Assembly (NCBI RefSeq): GCF_001043975.1
Contig: NZ_LABY01000034.1
Coordinates: 1-42,861 of the forward strand
Source: Methylobacterium variabile
GTDB taxonomy: Bacteria > Pseudomonadota > Alphaproteobacteria > Rhizobiales > Beijerinckiaceae
Length of the DNA: 42,861 nucleotides
Direction of reading: 5' to 3'
Shown here: piece after piece, positions 7,335-41,445 of the stretch
How positions within the stretch are numbered: position 1 is the first letter of the stretch
How the letters are laid out: every line of letters begins with the position of its first letter
Notes under the pieces: generated by a model
Database searches by the model: none
Told to the model about the DNA's origin: nothing
The model's input: only the letters and a program-made list of their open reading frames with translations
Program-made: the position numbers and the translations under genes

Positions 7335-8028
7335 GGTGTCCAGAAGAGTAAGGCGCGCGTGCTGAACGCGCGCGTGCGCGTCGCCGGCTGAATGGCGCGT
7401 CCGGTGCCGCTTGAGAAGGCCCCGCCAGCCGAACGCGTCGCTGCGAGCAGGCTCCGCCGTGTCCGGCGCGCCACGGTGGGGAAATCCGGCGAAATTCTGC
7501 GCGGTGGGGGTTGCGGCGGAGGGGCATGGCCCGTATCTACCGCCTTGCCCAATTTCGCACGTGCCTGTGGCCGCGTGCCGGTTGGTGGGCATCCGGACAA
7601 GAGGCCGGACAGCCGCCAGGGGTCTTAAAGGATCGATGGTCGGGAAGGGTGGATCCCTCCGGCCGGCATCCAGGTGGCGACACCGGACCCCGACAACAAC
7701 CGGCAGCCGGAGGCAAAACCGGCGAACCCCGCTCTCCACGGGGGACGCAGCTTAAAGCAACGACGAACGGGCTTTTTTGGTCTCGTCGGCCCTCCAAAGG
7801 CTGACACCGAAGAGGCTTGTTTCTCCTTGCCCCGAGTGCGGATCGGGTTTCCCCGTTCCAAGCAAAGGCAGCTTCCGGGTGCTCTGCGCCCGCGCCGCAT
7901 GGCGTGTCTCCACAGCACGCAGGCGCCGCGCCGCATCGCCCCCTGACGCCGGACGGCCGACGCGCGCCGTCTCGATCTCGACATCGGGGTCCCGCGGGAG
8001 CCCTCTCGAACCTTTGGTGGGGATGATC
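7335..8028 (+). promoter_or_regulatory. Long divergent region and structured leader of ornithine decarboxylase (candidate speF-type leader)
   Basis: Roughly 690 bases separate opgG from the decarboxylase and hold no convincing gene. Visible elements are a hairpin CGACGA/TCGTCG at 7761-7788 enclosing a T6 run, a possible 15-codon leader ORF at 7899-7946 (starts MACLHSTQ, two adjacent Arg), GC-rich self-complementary tracts, and the GGTGGGG ribosome-binding site at 8016-8022. Alphaproteobacterial ornithine decarboxylase genes are known to be preceded by a conserved RNA element called the speF motif. Position and length fit, but I could not align the consensus, so this assignment is inference. 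Confidence 0.4.
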
Positions 8029-38274: not shown

Positions 38275-38583
38275 TCAAGCCTCGGGTGCGGCGCTCTTCT
38301 GCCGACCGGCGCTTCCCGCGAGGATCATCCCCTCGGGGGCGGGCGCCGGCTTCGCCGCGGGCCGCAGGATGACGCCGTAGCCGTCCTCGGCGTCGCCGAC
38401 GAAGCGGATGCCCTCCCCTTCGAGCGCGGCGCGGATCGCCGCCAGGGTCCGGCTGCGCGGCTGGACCTGCTCGCTCTCGATCATGTTCAGGGTGACGACG
38501 GAGAGAGCGGCGCGGCTCGCCAGAACCCCTTGGGTCCATTTGAGAAGTCCGCGCCCGGCGCGGATCTGGGCAGATGTGATCAT
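38275..38583 (-). CDS. XRE-family helix-turn-helix regulator
   Basis: The 102-residue DNA-binding protein has MITSAQIRAGRGLLKWTQGVLASRAALSVVTLNMIESEQ and TLAAIRAALEGEGIRFV, the Cro/CI helix-turn-helix typical of a short alphaproteobacterial XRE group. The C-terminal 35 residues are unstructured. Start at 38583 is chosen over an upstream ATG because the family starts there. It is divergent from the Y-RNA-like array, with a shared control region, so it is a candidate regulator of the array. Confidence 0.85.
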   Translation of the reverse strand: MITSAQIRAGRGLLKWTQGVLASRAALSVVTLNMIESEQVQPRSRTLAAIRAALEGEGIRFVGDAEDGYGVILRPAAKPAPAPEGMILAGSAGRQKSAAPEA

Positions 38584-38597
38584 GGATCTGGAGATGA

Positions 38598-38626
38598 CCG
38601 AAGCTGAAAGAATTTTCAAGTTTCGG
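38598..38626. promoter_or_regulatory. Candidate operator between XRE gene and Y-RNA array
   Basis: A nested imperfect palindrome has outer arms CCGAA (38598-38602) and TTCGG (38622-38626) and inner arms TGAAA (38605-38609) and TTTCA (38614-38618), almost concentric. It lies 14 nt upstream of the XRE start codon and directly before the -35 box of the array promoter. This is AT-rich for the region. Confidence 0.4.
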
Positions 38627-38627
38627 C

Positions 38628-38656
38628 TTGACGGAGGGAAGGCGGGGCCGTATCCA
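38628..38656 (+). promoter_or_regulatory. Sigma-70-type promoter of the Y-RNA array
   Basis: TTGACG (38628-38633) and TATCCA (38651-38656) are separated by 17 bases. A start about 7 bases later would fall near 38663, a few bases before the basal stem of the first unit at 38667. The perfect spacing and position support it. Confidence 0.55.
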
Positions 38657-38666
38657 CCCGGTCATC

Positions 38667-38775
38667 GGCCTGCCGGGCCGGTGATGCAAGGTTACCGCAC
38701 CATCCTGGACGTCGCGGCAAGCGAGCCTCGGGGCGCAATGCCTAGTCCGCCTTGCTCGTACATGACCGGCAGACC
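38667..38775 (+). ncRNA. Y-RNA-like unit 1 (divergent, no recognisable T arm)
   Basis: Basal stem: GGCCTGCCGGGC (38667-38678) opposite GACCGGCAGACC (38764-38775), 10 of 12 paired. Internal loop CGGT on the 5' side and TCGTACAT on the 3' side. Upper stem AAGG and flanking bases (38686-38691) with CCTTGC (38750-38755). The conserved box is GGTTACC rather than GGTTATC. The 58-base apical region has GGAC/GTCC closing two small GGC/GCC hairpins, but no standard T arm or D arm. It shares the frame of the others, so it is either a degenerate member or one with a different effector module. Confidence 0.5.
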
Positions 38776-38789
38776 GACAGATCTTCACC

Positions 38790-38859
38790 GGCGCGGGCCG
38801 GAGACACTCGGTTATCCCTTCCCTGGATTGCCCCGAGCGTCACACGACACGCCCGCGCC
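38790..38859 (+). ncRNA. Y-RNA-like unit 2, minimal 70-nt form
   Basis: Basal stem GGCGCGGGC (38790-38798) pairs perfectly with GCCCGCGCC (38851-38859). The internal loop is CGGA on the 5' side and ACACGACAC on the 3' side. Upper stem GACACTCGG (38803-38811) pairs with CCGAGCGTC (38833-38841) with one A-C mismatch, followed by the TTATC box. The apical loop is only 21 bases, so the tRNA-like module is absent. It starts 14 nt after unit 1, leaving no room for a separate promoter. Confidence 0.65.
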
Positions 38860-38890
38860 ACCCCGCAGCCCCGTTCGGACGGAGCATGGC

Positions 38891-38989
38891 ATGAAACAGC
38901 ACGACGATCTCTACGTCGCCGCGTTCGCCCGTCCCGGGCTGATGCGGCCGTCACGGCCGCAGCGGGAAGGCGCCGGCCTCAGGGGCTGA
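38891..38989 (+). CDS. Possible 32-residue protein inside the array
   Basis: ATG at 38891 has a GGAG 6 nt upstream and a 33-codon frame (starts MKQHDDLYVAAFARPG, ends GAGLRG). It lies between units 2 and 3 and contains a perfect 9-bp palindrome TGCGGCCGT/ACGGCCGCA. It may be a chance ORF; no family recognised. Confidence 0.25.
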   Translation: MKQHDDLYVAAFARPGLMRPSRPQREGAGLRG

Positions 38990-39049
38990 GAGCGCACCAC
39001 CGGTCGGCGTGATGCCGACATTTTCCCAGATCACGTGAACGCGTCTGAC

Positions 39050-39187
39050 GGCCCTGCGGGCCGGCAGGGGACGGTTATCGGAGAGAGCGCCGCGGGTTCG
39101 CCCGCGGAGGTCGCGGATTCGAGTTCCGCCGGGGCCGCGAGGTCCCAGTAGCTCAGCACCCGTTCCCGACACCATGACCGCAGGACC
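39050..39187 (+). ncRNA. Y-RNA-like unit 3 with permuted tRNA module and UUCG hairpin
   Basis: Basal stem GGCCCTGCGGGC (39050-39061) with GACCGCAGGACC (39176-39187). Internal loop CGGCA / GACACCAT. Upper stem GGGGACGGT (39067-39075) with ACCCGTTCCC (39158-39167), one bulged C. GGTTATC box. Then an independent hairpin CCGCGGG-TTCG-CCCGCGG (39090-39107), a perfect T arm GCGGA-TTCGAGT-TCCGC (39113-39129), acceptor GGGGCC joined by loop GCGA to GGTCCC (39131-39146), and a shortened D-like arm AGCTCAGCA. The anticodon arm of a tRNA is replaced by the Y stem. Confidence 0.8.
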
Positions 39188-39210
39188 GCGACGGCGCGTG
39201 GATCCTCTTC

Positions 39211-39345
39211 GGCCGCGCGGGCCGGAGAGGGACGGTTATCCTTGCCAAGGAGGTGGTCGCGGGTTCGAATCCCGCCGGGCCGGAAGGCCCGTAGCTCAGC
39301 AGGTAGAGCGCCTTTCACCGTCCCTCATACCACGACCGCGAGGCC
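39211..39345 (+). ncRNA. Y-RNA-like unit 4 with permuted tRNA module (clearest copy)
   Basis: Basal stem GGCCGCGCGGGC (39211-39222) with GACCGCGAGGCC (39334-39345), 10 of 12 paired. Internal loop CGGA / ATACCAC. Upper stem GAGGGACGGT (39227-39236) perfectly complementary to ACCGTCCCTC (39317-39326), GGTTATC box. Inside: small hairpin CCTTGCCAAGG, T arm GCGGG-TTCGAAT-CCCGC (39259-39275), acceptor CGGGCC-GGAA-GGCCCG (39276-39291), and a full D arm TAGCTCAGCAGGTAGAGC. Every tRNA core element is present but the 3' half precedes the 5' half. Confidence 0.85.
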
Positions 39346-39476
39346 CGGCCGGGCCGGCAGGTGAAGGTTATCAGGTAATCCGGGGGGTGCGGGTGCAAGT
39401 CCCGCCGGACTGACAACGTCCGTAGCTCAAGGCAGAGCACCGGAAAAGATCCTTCGTCGCCACCATGTCCGGCCGG
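39345..39476 (+). ncRNA. Y-RNA-like unit 5 with permuted tRNA module
   Basis: Basal stem CCGGCCGGGC (39345-39354) with GTCCGGCCGG (39467-39476), 10 bp with one G-U. Internal loop CGGCA / GCCACCAT. Upper stem GGTGAAGGT (39360-39368) with ATCCTTCGTC (39449-39458), one bulge and two G-U pairs, GGTTATC box. Inside: TCCGG/CCGGA in the anticodon-stem position (39379-39383 with 39440-39444), T arm GCGGG-TGCAAGT-CCCGC (39389-39405), acceptor CGGAC/GTCCG closed by TGACAAC, D arm GCTC-AAGGCA-GAGC (39425-39438). It abuts unit 4 with no spacer. Confidence 0.8.
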
Positions 39477-39499
39477 CGATCCCACGCCGTCATGTTCGC

Positions 39500-39531
39500 T
39501 TGACAGTTGATGACATTGGCAGGACGCGACG
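39500..39531 (+). promoter_or_regulatory. Possible promoter of the last Y-RNA unit
   Basis: A consensus TTGACA (39500-39505) lies 33 bases before the basal stem of unit 6 (39538), the right distance for a start there. The expected -10 area (about 39523-39531) is GC-rich with no good TATAAT match. The 61-base gap before unit 6 is large enough for its own promoter, unlike the gap between units 4 and 5. Confidence 0.35.
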
Positions 39532-39537
39532 AGAGCA

Positions 39538-39695
39538 CGGCCGTGCGGGCCGGCCGGGACAGGTTATCTGGTCGACCGAAAGGTGAGGGTTCGAATCCCA
39601 CGGGCCGCGAGGCCCGATGCTCGGGTGGCGGACGAGCTGCCCTTCCGGCGTGAGCCGGGAGCACGACCTGTCCCGAACACATGCCCGCACGGCCG
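39538..39695 (+). ncRNA. Y-RNA-like unit 6 with permuted tRNA module, most stable basal stem
   Basis: Basal stem CGGCCGTGCGGGC (39538-39550) is perfectly complementary over 13 bp to GCCCGCACGGCCG (39683-39695). Internal loop CGGC / AACACAT. Upper stem CGGGACAGGT (39555-39564) pairs perfectly with ACCTGTCCCG (39666-39675), GGTTATC box. Inside: T loop TTCGAAT (39590-39596) on a stem with one mismatch, acceptor GGGCC-GCGA-GGCCC (39602-39615), D arm GCTCG/CGAGC (39619-39637), and an extra hairpin CCGGC-GTGA-GCCGG (39645-39658). It lies 175 nt upstream of the TROVE start codon. Confidence 0.85.
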
Positions 39696-39870: not shown

Positions 39871-41445
39871 ATGATGAAGTACGCCAAGATGCTGTCGCTC
39901 CGGCGCACCCCGCAGTCGGAGCCGGTTCCCGGCACCGTGCCGAACTCCGCCGGCGGGCACGCCTTCGCGGTCGACGACTGGGCGCGGCTCGACCGCTTCC
40001 TGGTGCTCGGCTCCGAGGGCGGCTCTTACTACGCGAGCCCGCGGGCGCTGACCGCCGGGAACGCGGCCGCCGTGCAACGCTGCATCGCCGAGGACGGCCT
40101 GCGCGCGGTCGCGGCGATCGTGGCGGTGAGCGAGGCCGGACGGGCGCCGAAGCAGGACCCGGCGATCTTCGCCCTCGCGCTCGCCGCCGCCTCGGCGGAC
40201 CTGGCGACGCGGCGCGCCGCGCTCTCCGCCCTGCCGCGGGTCTGCCGCACCGGCACGCACCTGTTCCAGTTCGCCGGCGCCGTCGAGGCGACGCGCGGCT
40301 GGGGCCGGTCCCTGCGCCGCGCGGTCGGCACCTGGTACTGCGCCGCCCCGGTGGAGGCCCTGGCCTTCCAGGCGGTGAAGTACCGGGCGCGCCAGGGCTG
40401 GACCCACCGCGACCTCCTGCGCCTCGCCCATCCGGAGACGGACGAGCCGGCGCGGAAGGCGCTGTTCGACTGGATCTGCCGCGGCCGGATGGCCGAGGCG
40501 GTCCCGGAGATCGTCCACGCCTTCACCAAGGTGCAGGCATCGGACGTCGACGGGGCGGTGGCCGCGGCCCTGATCCGCTCGCACAACCTGCCCTGGGAGG
40601 CGCTGCCGACCGAGCTGATGCGCAGCCGCGCCGTGAACGAGGCCCTGATCGAGCGGATGCCGGTCGGTGCCCTGGTGCGCCAGCTCGGCCGCCTCACGGC
40701 GGCGGGGGCGCTCGCGCCCTTCTCGGAGGGCACCGAGCGCGTCCGGGCGGTACTGTCGGACCGGGAGCGCATCCTCCGGGCGCGGCTCCACCCGATGGCG
40801 CTGCTCCTCGCGCTCAAGACCTACGCCTCCGGGCGCGGTCAGCGCGGGCAGCTCGCCTGGGAGCCCGTGGCGGCCACCGTCGAGGCGCTGAACGCCGCGT
40901 TCTACACCGCGTTCGCGGCGGTCGAGCCGACCGGCAAGCGCCTGGTGCTGGCGCTTGACGTCTCGGGCTCGATGGGGTGCAGCACCGTGGCGGGGTCCGC
41001 GTTGACCGCCCGCGAGGCGGCCGCCGCGATGGCCCTCGTCACCGCGGCGACCGAGGAGCACTGGCAGGTCCTCGGCTTCAGCGGAGGACTGACGCCGCTG
41101 CCGATCGGTCCCTCGATGCGGCTCGATCAGGCGGTGGCGGCGACGGCGAACCTGCCGTTCGACGCCACCGACTGCTCGCTGCCGATGCGCTGGGCGCTGA
41201 AGCAGGAGGTCAAGGCCGACGCGTTCGTGGTCTACACGGACTCGGAGACCTGGGTCGGTCCGCTCCACCCGGTCCAGGCCCTGCGGGAGTACCGGGAGAA
41301 GACCGGGATCCCGGCGAAGCTCGTGGTCGTGGGGCTCGTCTCCAACGGCTTCAGCATCGCCGACCCGGACGATCCCGGCATGCTCGACGTGGTCGGCTTC
41401 GACACGGCAGCGCCGGCGGTGATCGCCGACTTCATCCGGTCCTGA
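39871..41445 (+). CDS. rsr: Ro60-like RNA-binding protein (TROVE and VWA domains)
   Basis: Ro60 proteins form a HEAT-repeat ring that binds Y RNAs on its outer face and misfolded RNA ends in its hole; in bacteria they act with PNPase or other RNases in RNA decay after stress. The 524-residue protein has the TROVE ring (about 25-350; TFYAS-like SYYASPRALTAGN, WGRSLRRAVGTWY, VKYRARQGWTHRDLLRLAHP) and a C-terminal VWA domain with a full MIDAS: Asp363-Ser365-Ser367 (DVSGSMG), Thr433/Asp434 (DATDCS) and Asp457 (YTDSET). A purine-rich leader with repeated GGAGAG (39842-39867) supplies the ribosome-binding site. It lies directly downstream of the Y-RNA-like array. Confidence 0.96.
   Translation: MMKYAKMLSLRRTPQSEPVPGTVPNSAGGHAFAVDDWARLDRFLVLGSEGGSYYASPRALTAGNAAAVQRCIAEDGLRAVAAIVAVSEAGRAPKQDPAIFALALAAASADLATRRAALSALPRVCRTGTHLFQFAGAVEATRGWGRSLRRAVGTWYCAAPVEALAFQAVKYRARQGWTHRDLLRLAHPETDEPARKALFDWICRGRMAEAVPEIVHAFTKVQASDVDGAVAAALIRSHNLPWEALPTELMRSRAVNEALIERMPVGALVRQLGRLTAAGALAPFSEGTERVRAVLSDRERILRARLHPMALLLALKTYASGRGQRGQLAWEPVAATVEALNAAFYTAFAAVEPTGKRLVLALDVSGSMGCSTVAGSALTAREAAAAMALVTAATEEHWQVLGFSGGLTPLPIGPSMRLDQAVAATANLPFDATDCSLPMRWALKQEVKADAFVVYTDSETWVGPLHPVQALREYREKTGIPAKLVVVGLVSNGFSIADPDDPGMLDVVGFDTAAPAVIADFIRS

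Follow-up and report, generated by a model that had tools for sequence, protein, structure and literature searches.

Which RNAs would work with the Ro60 orthologue (Rsr) of Methylobacterium variabile is the question raised by a 42,861-nucleotide (nt) stretch of its genome (contig NZ_LABY01000034.1 of assembly GCF_001043975.1, positions 1 to 42,861 of the forward strand; hereafter the window), in which six Y-RNA-like units at 38666-39695 lie upstream of the Ro60 gene rsr (39871-41445, plus strand). We regard it as probable that these units are a tandem set of Y RNA genes providing the adjacent Rsr with interchangeable adaptors, each of which would join one likely Ro60-binding handle to a different insert; their transcription, their binding and their adaptor role we infer. 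A sequence-only reading of the window had proposed Y-RNA-like units beside a Ro60 gene, and this proposal is supported by the domains of Rsr, by matches to the Rfam model of the bacterial Y RNA YrlA and by covariation. The Ro60 gene itself is genuine: the protein contains the TROVE (123.8 bits) and vWA_Ro60 (224.8 bits) domains, both above the cut-off, and matched among the solved structures the RO60 entry 9nen with 407 bits (9e-121), the Ro entry 1yvp with 402 bits and the bacterial Rsr entry 2nvo with 385 bits (which we take to be the human, Xenopus and Deinococcus proteins, respectively).

Architecture of the six units

The basal 5′ arms begin at 38666, 38790, 39049, 39211, 39345 and 39538 and the final 3′ arm ends at 39695, where the array had been placed. 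Each unit consists, in this order, of a basal stem ending in GGGC, a CGGN loop, an upper stem, a GGTTAYC box and the insert, followed on the 3′ side by the second arm of the upper stem, a loop ending in CAY (in all six) and a basal 3′ arm beginning with GNCCG; the 5′ and 3′ ends form the bulged stem with a conserved internal loop, leading into a variable insert, that is expected of a Y RNA, least clearly so in class A (the classes are described below; the window holds A, B, D, E, F and G). The box is present in every unit (GGTTACC in unit 1, GGTTATC in units 2-6). The 5′ loop was correctly described as CGGN for the six window units, but relatives mostly contain CGRN and not CGGN alone; likewise, the 13 basal pairs of unit 6 and the ten upper pairs of unit 4 were recovered, whereas the upper stem of unit 6, given as ten perfect pairs, comprises 11 (ten Watson-Crick pairs and one G-T). 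Units 3-6 contain tRNA-like inserts, a feature absent from the earlier description.

Unit 1 (class A, 38666-38776, plus strand as all units) is without tRNA arms, has the GGTTACC variant of the box and is the weakest of the six; unit 2 (class B, 38790-38859) is a minimal handle without a tRNA body. Unit 3 (class D, 39049-39188) likely contains a tRNA body opened in its D-loop (D-arm 3′ half, anticodon-like arm, T-arm, acceptor hairpin, D-arm 5′ half), and unit 4 (class E, 39211-39345) a tRNA body in the order of YrlA, whose insert at 39259-39309 is divided, according to the sequence and the consensus fold, into T-arm (39259-39275), acceptor-like hairpin (39276-39291) and D-arm (39294-39309). 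Unit 5 (class F, 39345-39476) abuts unit 4 at 39345 with no spacer between them and has a tRNA-like body in YrlA order, and unit 6 (class G, 39538-39695) contains a T-arm, an acceptor-like hairpin, a D-arm and one further hairpin; neither was called as a tRNA after de-permutation.

With the 5′ motif fixed, the sequence downstream was dinucleotide-shuffled 300 times for each unit; an equally good 3′ partner arose in 2, 1, 2, 0, 2 and 0 of the shuffles for units 1-6, respectively. The two-stem geometry without the sequence boxes was not above chance in this G+C-rich region: scores of up to about 45 arise on both strands, and geometry alone was therefore dropped as evidence, so that the case rests on the fixed sequence boxes and on cross-species covariation. 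Folding of each unit without constraint yielded, for units 2-6, the basal stem together with the greater part of the upper stem (z of −4.21, −2.83, −3.05, −2.14 and −3.67; unit 6 folded over 39540-39689), whereas in unit 1 the basal stem alone was recovered (z of −1.10).

Between units 2 and 3 the array contains a small open reading frame (38891-38989, plus strand) of 32 codons (MKQHDDLYVAAFARPG...) with a GGAG site, a stretch at first suspected of being a further RNA. Similar frames of 24-37 amino acids occur in 24 of 29 loci of the genus, and their third codon positions are somewhat more variable (4 of 8 columns, against 2 and 2), a weak sign of coding.

Occurrence upstream of rsr within and beyond the genus

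One fixed descriptor (GGCCGR and, after a gap, GGTTAYC, with two mismatches at most and two stems) was applied to 29 loci of the genus, namely those of the window and of 27 relatives, and L058. Upstream of rsr it detected 149 units, 4-7 per locus; the control, which comprised the other strand and both strands of the rsr coding region, gave 2 matches in 121.8 kb. The window rsr shares 78-88% protein identity with genes in 17 named Methylobacterium and Methylorubrum records. The vWA_Ro60 domain was found in 28 of 111 genomes of the genus, and three or more same-strand copies of the exact 5′ motif were present in 27 of the 28, compared with 2 of the 83 genomes without the domain. The single exception among the former (G100, locus L057) has units with drifted boxes; of the two motif-bearing genomes without the domain, G059 has its motifs scattered over three contigs, and G044 contains one cluster beside a truncated rsr. 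The units are in consequence linked to the Ro60 gene as Y RNA genes are expected to be, with one clustered case among the 83 genomes that lack the domain. In this genome, G044 (L058), codons 1-81 of rsr run in frame into RtcB-like sequence, which looks like an internal deletion, and seven units are retained.

Outside the genus, 18 other rsr loci, some of them from phages, were examined with the descriptor, which found 42 units distributed over 15 of them (control: 1 match in 74.2 kb). Four units precede rsr in an Acetobacteraceae metagenome-assembled genome, two and six in two further alphaproteobacterial genomes, one in Labedaea, three in Nonomuraea, and 3, 4, 1, 3 and 2 in five further genomes of the order of Labedaea. 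In all five phage loci read (L146-L150, from Gordonia, Mycobacterium and Microbacterium phages), out of 340 phage records encoding an Rsr relative, units stood upstream of the Ro-like gene (2, 2, 3, 3 and 3), and the stretches read contain no feature annotated as a Y RNA. The Labedaea genome (G402) has three more units away from the rsr contig, two in tandem on one contig and one on a third (L153, L154). In 20 further rsr-like loci obtained by an order-wide search (L087-L106), a loose-pattern scan for the box yielded no match that was accepted as a unit. Two of these loci, L091 and L094, contain an ordinary YrlA downstream of rsr, where two matches attained the gathering score of 69 (92.5 and 69.6 bits) and several others were weaker; the Rsr of L094 is of a second, more distant type (40 bits to 9nen).

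Discussions of bacterial Y RNAs usually concern one or two of them in a genome. The earlier description of the array as unusual is half right by this survey: 4-7 units were present in every one of the 28 genus loci in which rsr is intact, and of the 15 unit-bearing loci from other lineages 13 have 2-6.

Orthologous classes and covariation

Clustering was based on a looser first pass, which gave 160 units and to which the class counts refer. The units fell into classes B (28 loci), D (27), E (26), C (14), G (14), I (12), F (10), A (10) and A2 (10), besides two minor classes of 3 and 2 units and 4 singletons: the units recur as orthologous classes that share the two-stem handle. For the alignments 128 of the 160 units were used; the 12 class I and 10 A2 units, the 5 units of the minor classes, the 4 singletons and the class D copy of L057 (3′ end misplaced) were omitted, the class B copy of L051 was extended by 13 nt and a clipped class G copy of L055 was kept. 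Consensus folding blind to the proposed model recovered both the basal and the upper stem in classes B, C, D and E; in class G it did so too, with an upper stem that differed in part, and class F was covered by alignment alone. In class A, the basal stem was recovered with a local hairpin preferred above it.

Covariation in related genomes, which had been named beforehand as one of the points on which the sequence-only reading should be judged, was present. In class E, 98.1% of cells were paired compared with 36-50% in slid structures, a comparison that favours the counted structures because they were derived from the same alignments; 9 of 33 pairs showed changes on both sides, amounting to 45 cells compared with 13.2 in shuffles (0 of 500 as high). 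In class D, 17 cells were changed on both sides compared with 3.6 in shuffles (again 0 of 500 as high).

These results bear on the possibility that a single YrlA-type gene was duplicated and that its copies are redundant or in decay, in which case the differences between their inserts would be meaningless. Signs of drift do exist (the boxes GGTGATC and GGTTCTC, one unit each with poor basal pairing in L044 and L054, a first unit too diverged to be called in five loci). Classes B, D and E, however, were found with compensatory change in 28, 27 and 26 of the 29 loci, and drift would not keep separate classes; this explanation is therefore considered improbable.

Permuted tRNA-like bodies in the inserts

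The class E insert is a tRNA body permuted in the order found in YrlA (T-arm, acceptor hairpin, D-arm): When the inserts were rotated through all cut points, ARAGORN called a tRNA in 21 of 26, compared with 0 of 26 in native order and 0 of 130 shuffles. Class F follows the same order by alignment. In class D, the succession is D-arm 3′ half (mostly GGTAGAGC), anticodon-like hairpin, T-arm, acceptor hairpin and D-arm 5′ half (mostly GTAGCTC), and in the consensus fold GAGC and GCTC are paired and enclose the rest of the insert; this is likely, rather than shown, to be a tRNA body as in class E but opened in the D-loop. The consensus fold of class G contains T-arm, acceptor, D-arm and a further hairpin, class I seems by eye to retain T-arm and acceptor alone, and no tRNA arms were visible on inspection of classes A, B and C (one of 10 A2 inserts and none of class B passed the length filter of ARAGORN).

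The tRNA-like stretches might alternatively be remnants of a degraded tRNA array beside which the handle is coincidental. ARAGORN indeed called a tRNA-Gly at 39209-39284 (plus strand), and the Rfam tRNA model matched unit 4 with 28.3 bits, just under the cut-off of 29. The tRNA-Gly call, however, is part of unit 4 and spans its handle, and automatic annotation may list a false tRNA at this position. None of the tested inserts was called in native order, and a tRNA gene, with its arms in tRNA order and a full acceptor stem, was not found; the arms of class E are recognized in rotated order only, and the tract of units tracks rsr. A tRNA gene or remnant was rejected on account of the permuted arms of class E, and the remnant explanation, contradicted by the permuted order and by the covariation of the handle, is regarded as extremely improbable.

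Comparison with known Y RNAs

In bacterial Y RNAs described so far, the stem holds Rsr and the insert tethers polynucleotide phosphorylase (PNPase) or mimics a tRNA, the complex of Rsr, Y RNA and PNPase being termed RYPER (passages of PMC4726728 and PMC8394870). The closest known relative of classes E and F (the latter by alignment) is YrlA (RF02553), as represented by Salmonella YrlA, the structure of which is PDB entry 6CU1 (as given in parts of PMC8394870 and PMC11472068): it is located beside rsr and combines a handle stem with a tRNA-like module of T-arm, acceptor hairpin and D-arm. The YrlA insert order was obtained for class E by de-permutation and for class F by alignment, and is missing from A, B and C. 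When the proposed comparison with the YrlA model was carried out, unit 4 matched with 52.3 bits (expectation value, E, of 1.4e-10) and unit 5 with 34.8 bits, but unit 3 gave a chance-level 16.1 bits and all stayed under the gathering score of 69; the best score in nine relatives scanned was 55.4. The window units differ from YrlA further in having GGTTAYC in the handle where the RF02553 consensus reads differently, in their number (4-7 per locus), in class D, which seems to open the tRNA body elsewhere, and in classes A, B and C, which are without a tRNA body.

The second likeness is to nematode stem-bulge RNAs (sbRNAs; RF01656), with which the units have handle letters in common on both strands (CGG-CCGGAG...GGUUAYC and CAC-AAC-UG-CCG). 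The model matched L152 with 38.2 bits, the only score to reach the gathering score of 38, followed by L151 (37.4), unit 2 of the window (32.6, E of 1.7e-4), L033 (32.0) and the Gordonia phage locus L146 (31.8). All nine matches listed fall on predicted units, three of them being weak (E above 0.5). The vertebrate Y_RNA model (RF00019) gave no match up to an E of 10 in the window, and the tRNA-like inserts of several bacterial units set them apart from sbRNAs and vertebrate Y RNAs. The likeness of the handle to that of animal RNAs could reflect common descent or shaping by the same protein. According to passages of PMC4726728 and PMC4450293, initiation of replication in vitro requires the UUAUC motif that sbRNAs have at this position, and vertebrate Y RNAs contain the motif too.

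Among gene arrangements, the Salmonella RNA repair operon rsr-yrlBA-rtcBA, as described in part of PMC7790460, likewise comprises a Ro60 gene and more than one Y RNA, and rtcB adjoins in two Methylorubrum strains; it differs from the window in that the latter has six diverse units upstream of rsr, no rtcB beside rsr and an XRE-type gene upstream. The phage sets of Ro60 and Y RNAs share the handle and have two or three units upstream of a Ro-like gene, but fewer units per locus, and are phage-borne; phage Y RNAs have already been reported (sections of PMC12282133, on mycobacteriophages, and of PMC7765460). No such Methylobacterium array and no second permutation of a tRNA body appeared in the titles and abstracts searched, and an earlier mention in Chen 2013 and 2014 or Sim 2018 and 2020 is possible.

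Proposed function and control of the array

A 15-base core of a palindrome (CCGAAGCTGAAAGAATTTTCAAGTTTCGG, 38598-38626), a candidate operator, precedes the array in 29 of 29 loci, exactly in 18 and with 1-2 mismatches in the other 11. From it to the 5′ motif of the unit detected first, the distance is 71-73 nt in 24 loci and 169-191 nt in the other five, in which the first unit is uncalled. Beside it stands the candidate promoter TTGACG-17-TATCCA (38628-38656, plus strand): all 18 loci that have the core without mismatch contain TTGACG, and 16 of them have TAnnCA 17 nt further on. The divergent gene at 38275-38619 (minus strand) encodes an XRE-type (HTH_3) regulator (22.4 bits, just under the cut-off of 23) and is the candidate controller of the array.

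Transcription would proceed from this one conserved promoter, beside the palindrome to which the divergent XRE-type protein would bind, and the common precursor may be cut into single RNAs, a step proposed because units 4 and 5 abut. Each RNA would then bind Rsr through its handle, and the inserts may dock or gate different partners, of which PNPase or tRNA-handling enzymes appear likeliest by analogy with known bacterial Y RNAs; by the same analogy, six or seven adaptors might give one Rsr access to several partners or substrates. In culturable bacteria, a conserved set of up to seven such RNAs, with inserts that differ, would permit a direct test of whether Ro60 switches partners by means of its Y RNA.

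The same arrangement would be compatible with a mainly cis-acting leader of the rsr mRNA, whereby Rsr would bind the Y-like elements in the 5′ region of this mRNA and so restrain its own production, with no need of separate trans-acting Y RNAs: the array is on the rsr strand, one conserved promoter-like site stands at its far end, no plus-strand terminator was found within it, and the last unit ends 175 nt before rsr (class I begins about 150 nt before rsr in 12 relatives). A leader would nonetheless have no need of so many distinct orthologous inserts, among which is a conserved tRNA body; the Labedaea units on contigs other than that of rsr, and YrlA downstream of rsr in two other genomes of the order (L091, L094), are likewise at odds with it. 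We consider this explanation unlikely and prefer the tandem set of adaptor RNAs.

A more far-reaching proposition is that one bacterial operon encodes an adaptor kit for Ro60, in which one tRNA body is used in at least two circular permutations: in class E the handle would replace the anticodon arm, in class D it would sit in the D-loop, and for class G its place may be the variable region. The handle itself, with its GGUUAYC box, would be homologous to its counterpart in animal Y RNAs and sbRNAs. We put this forward tentatively and with more doubt than confidence. If it is true, the box, to which a role in animal DNA replication has been ascribed, would be an ancient element of the Ro60 handle. 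The matches to the nematode RNA model raise doubts about treating the Y RNAs of bacteria and of animals as unrelated, and a handle common to both would offer a simple bacterial system for the role of the UUAUC box in animal Y RNAs.

Several results weigh against the proposed readings. All window units stay below the gathering scores of the Rfam Y RNA families, unit 1 on its own folds poorly and the class A consensus favours a local hairpin over the upper stem. ARAGORN called 1 of 27 de-permuted class D copies (that of the window) and 0 of 10, 0 of 14 and 0 of 12 in classes F, G and I; the D-stem of class D never varies and therefore lends no support by covariation, and for these reasons the opening in the D-loop is held to be likely only. 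The structures counted came from the same alignments, and two measures of covariation are less clear: further pair types in class E (57 of 500 shuffles as high) and pairs changed on both sides in class D (25 of 500). A generic sigma-70 scan calls no promoter, the candidate TTGACG-17-TATCCA included. The rsr loci of Bosea, of Rhizobium and of a Picosynechococcus plasmid are without units by the fixed descriptor, so that Rsr does not always need them. RF01656 matches were found in 2 of 9, 3 of 9 and 0 of 3 loci in three scans (the third up to an E of 0.5), and most unit-bearing loci had none. Finally, passages of PMC4726728 deny homology between bacterial and vertebrate Y RNAs and state that the Deinococcus Y RNA cannot replace vertebrate Y RNAs in replication assays, and that sbRNAs except CeY were absent from nematode Ro60 immunoprecipitates, CeN72 being bound in a gel shift.

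Neighbouring genes and further Rfam matches

Downstream of rsr the gene content varies with the genome: M. aminovorans and M. rhodinum have rtcB directly after it, the window and M. tarhaniae a SWIM gene downstream (followed in the latter by a DUF5691 gene), and four other frames downstream of rsr had no Pfam match. Rfam matches to group II intron, twister-sister, plastid untranslated region, snoRNA and microRNA families were taken as chance. At gathering level, Rfam matched the small RNA ar45 and the speF leader, which adjoin each other at 7547-7916 (plus strand).

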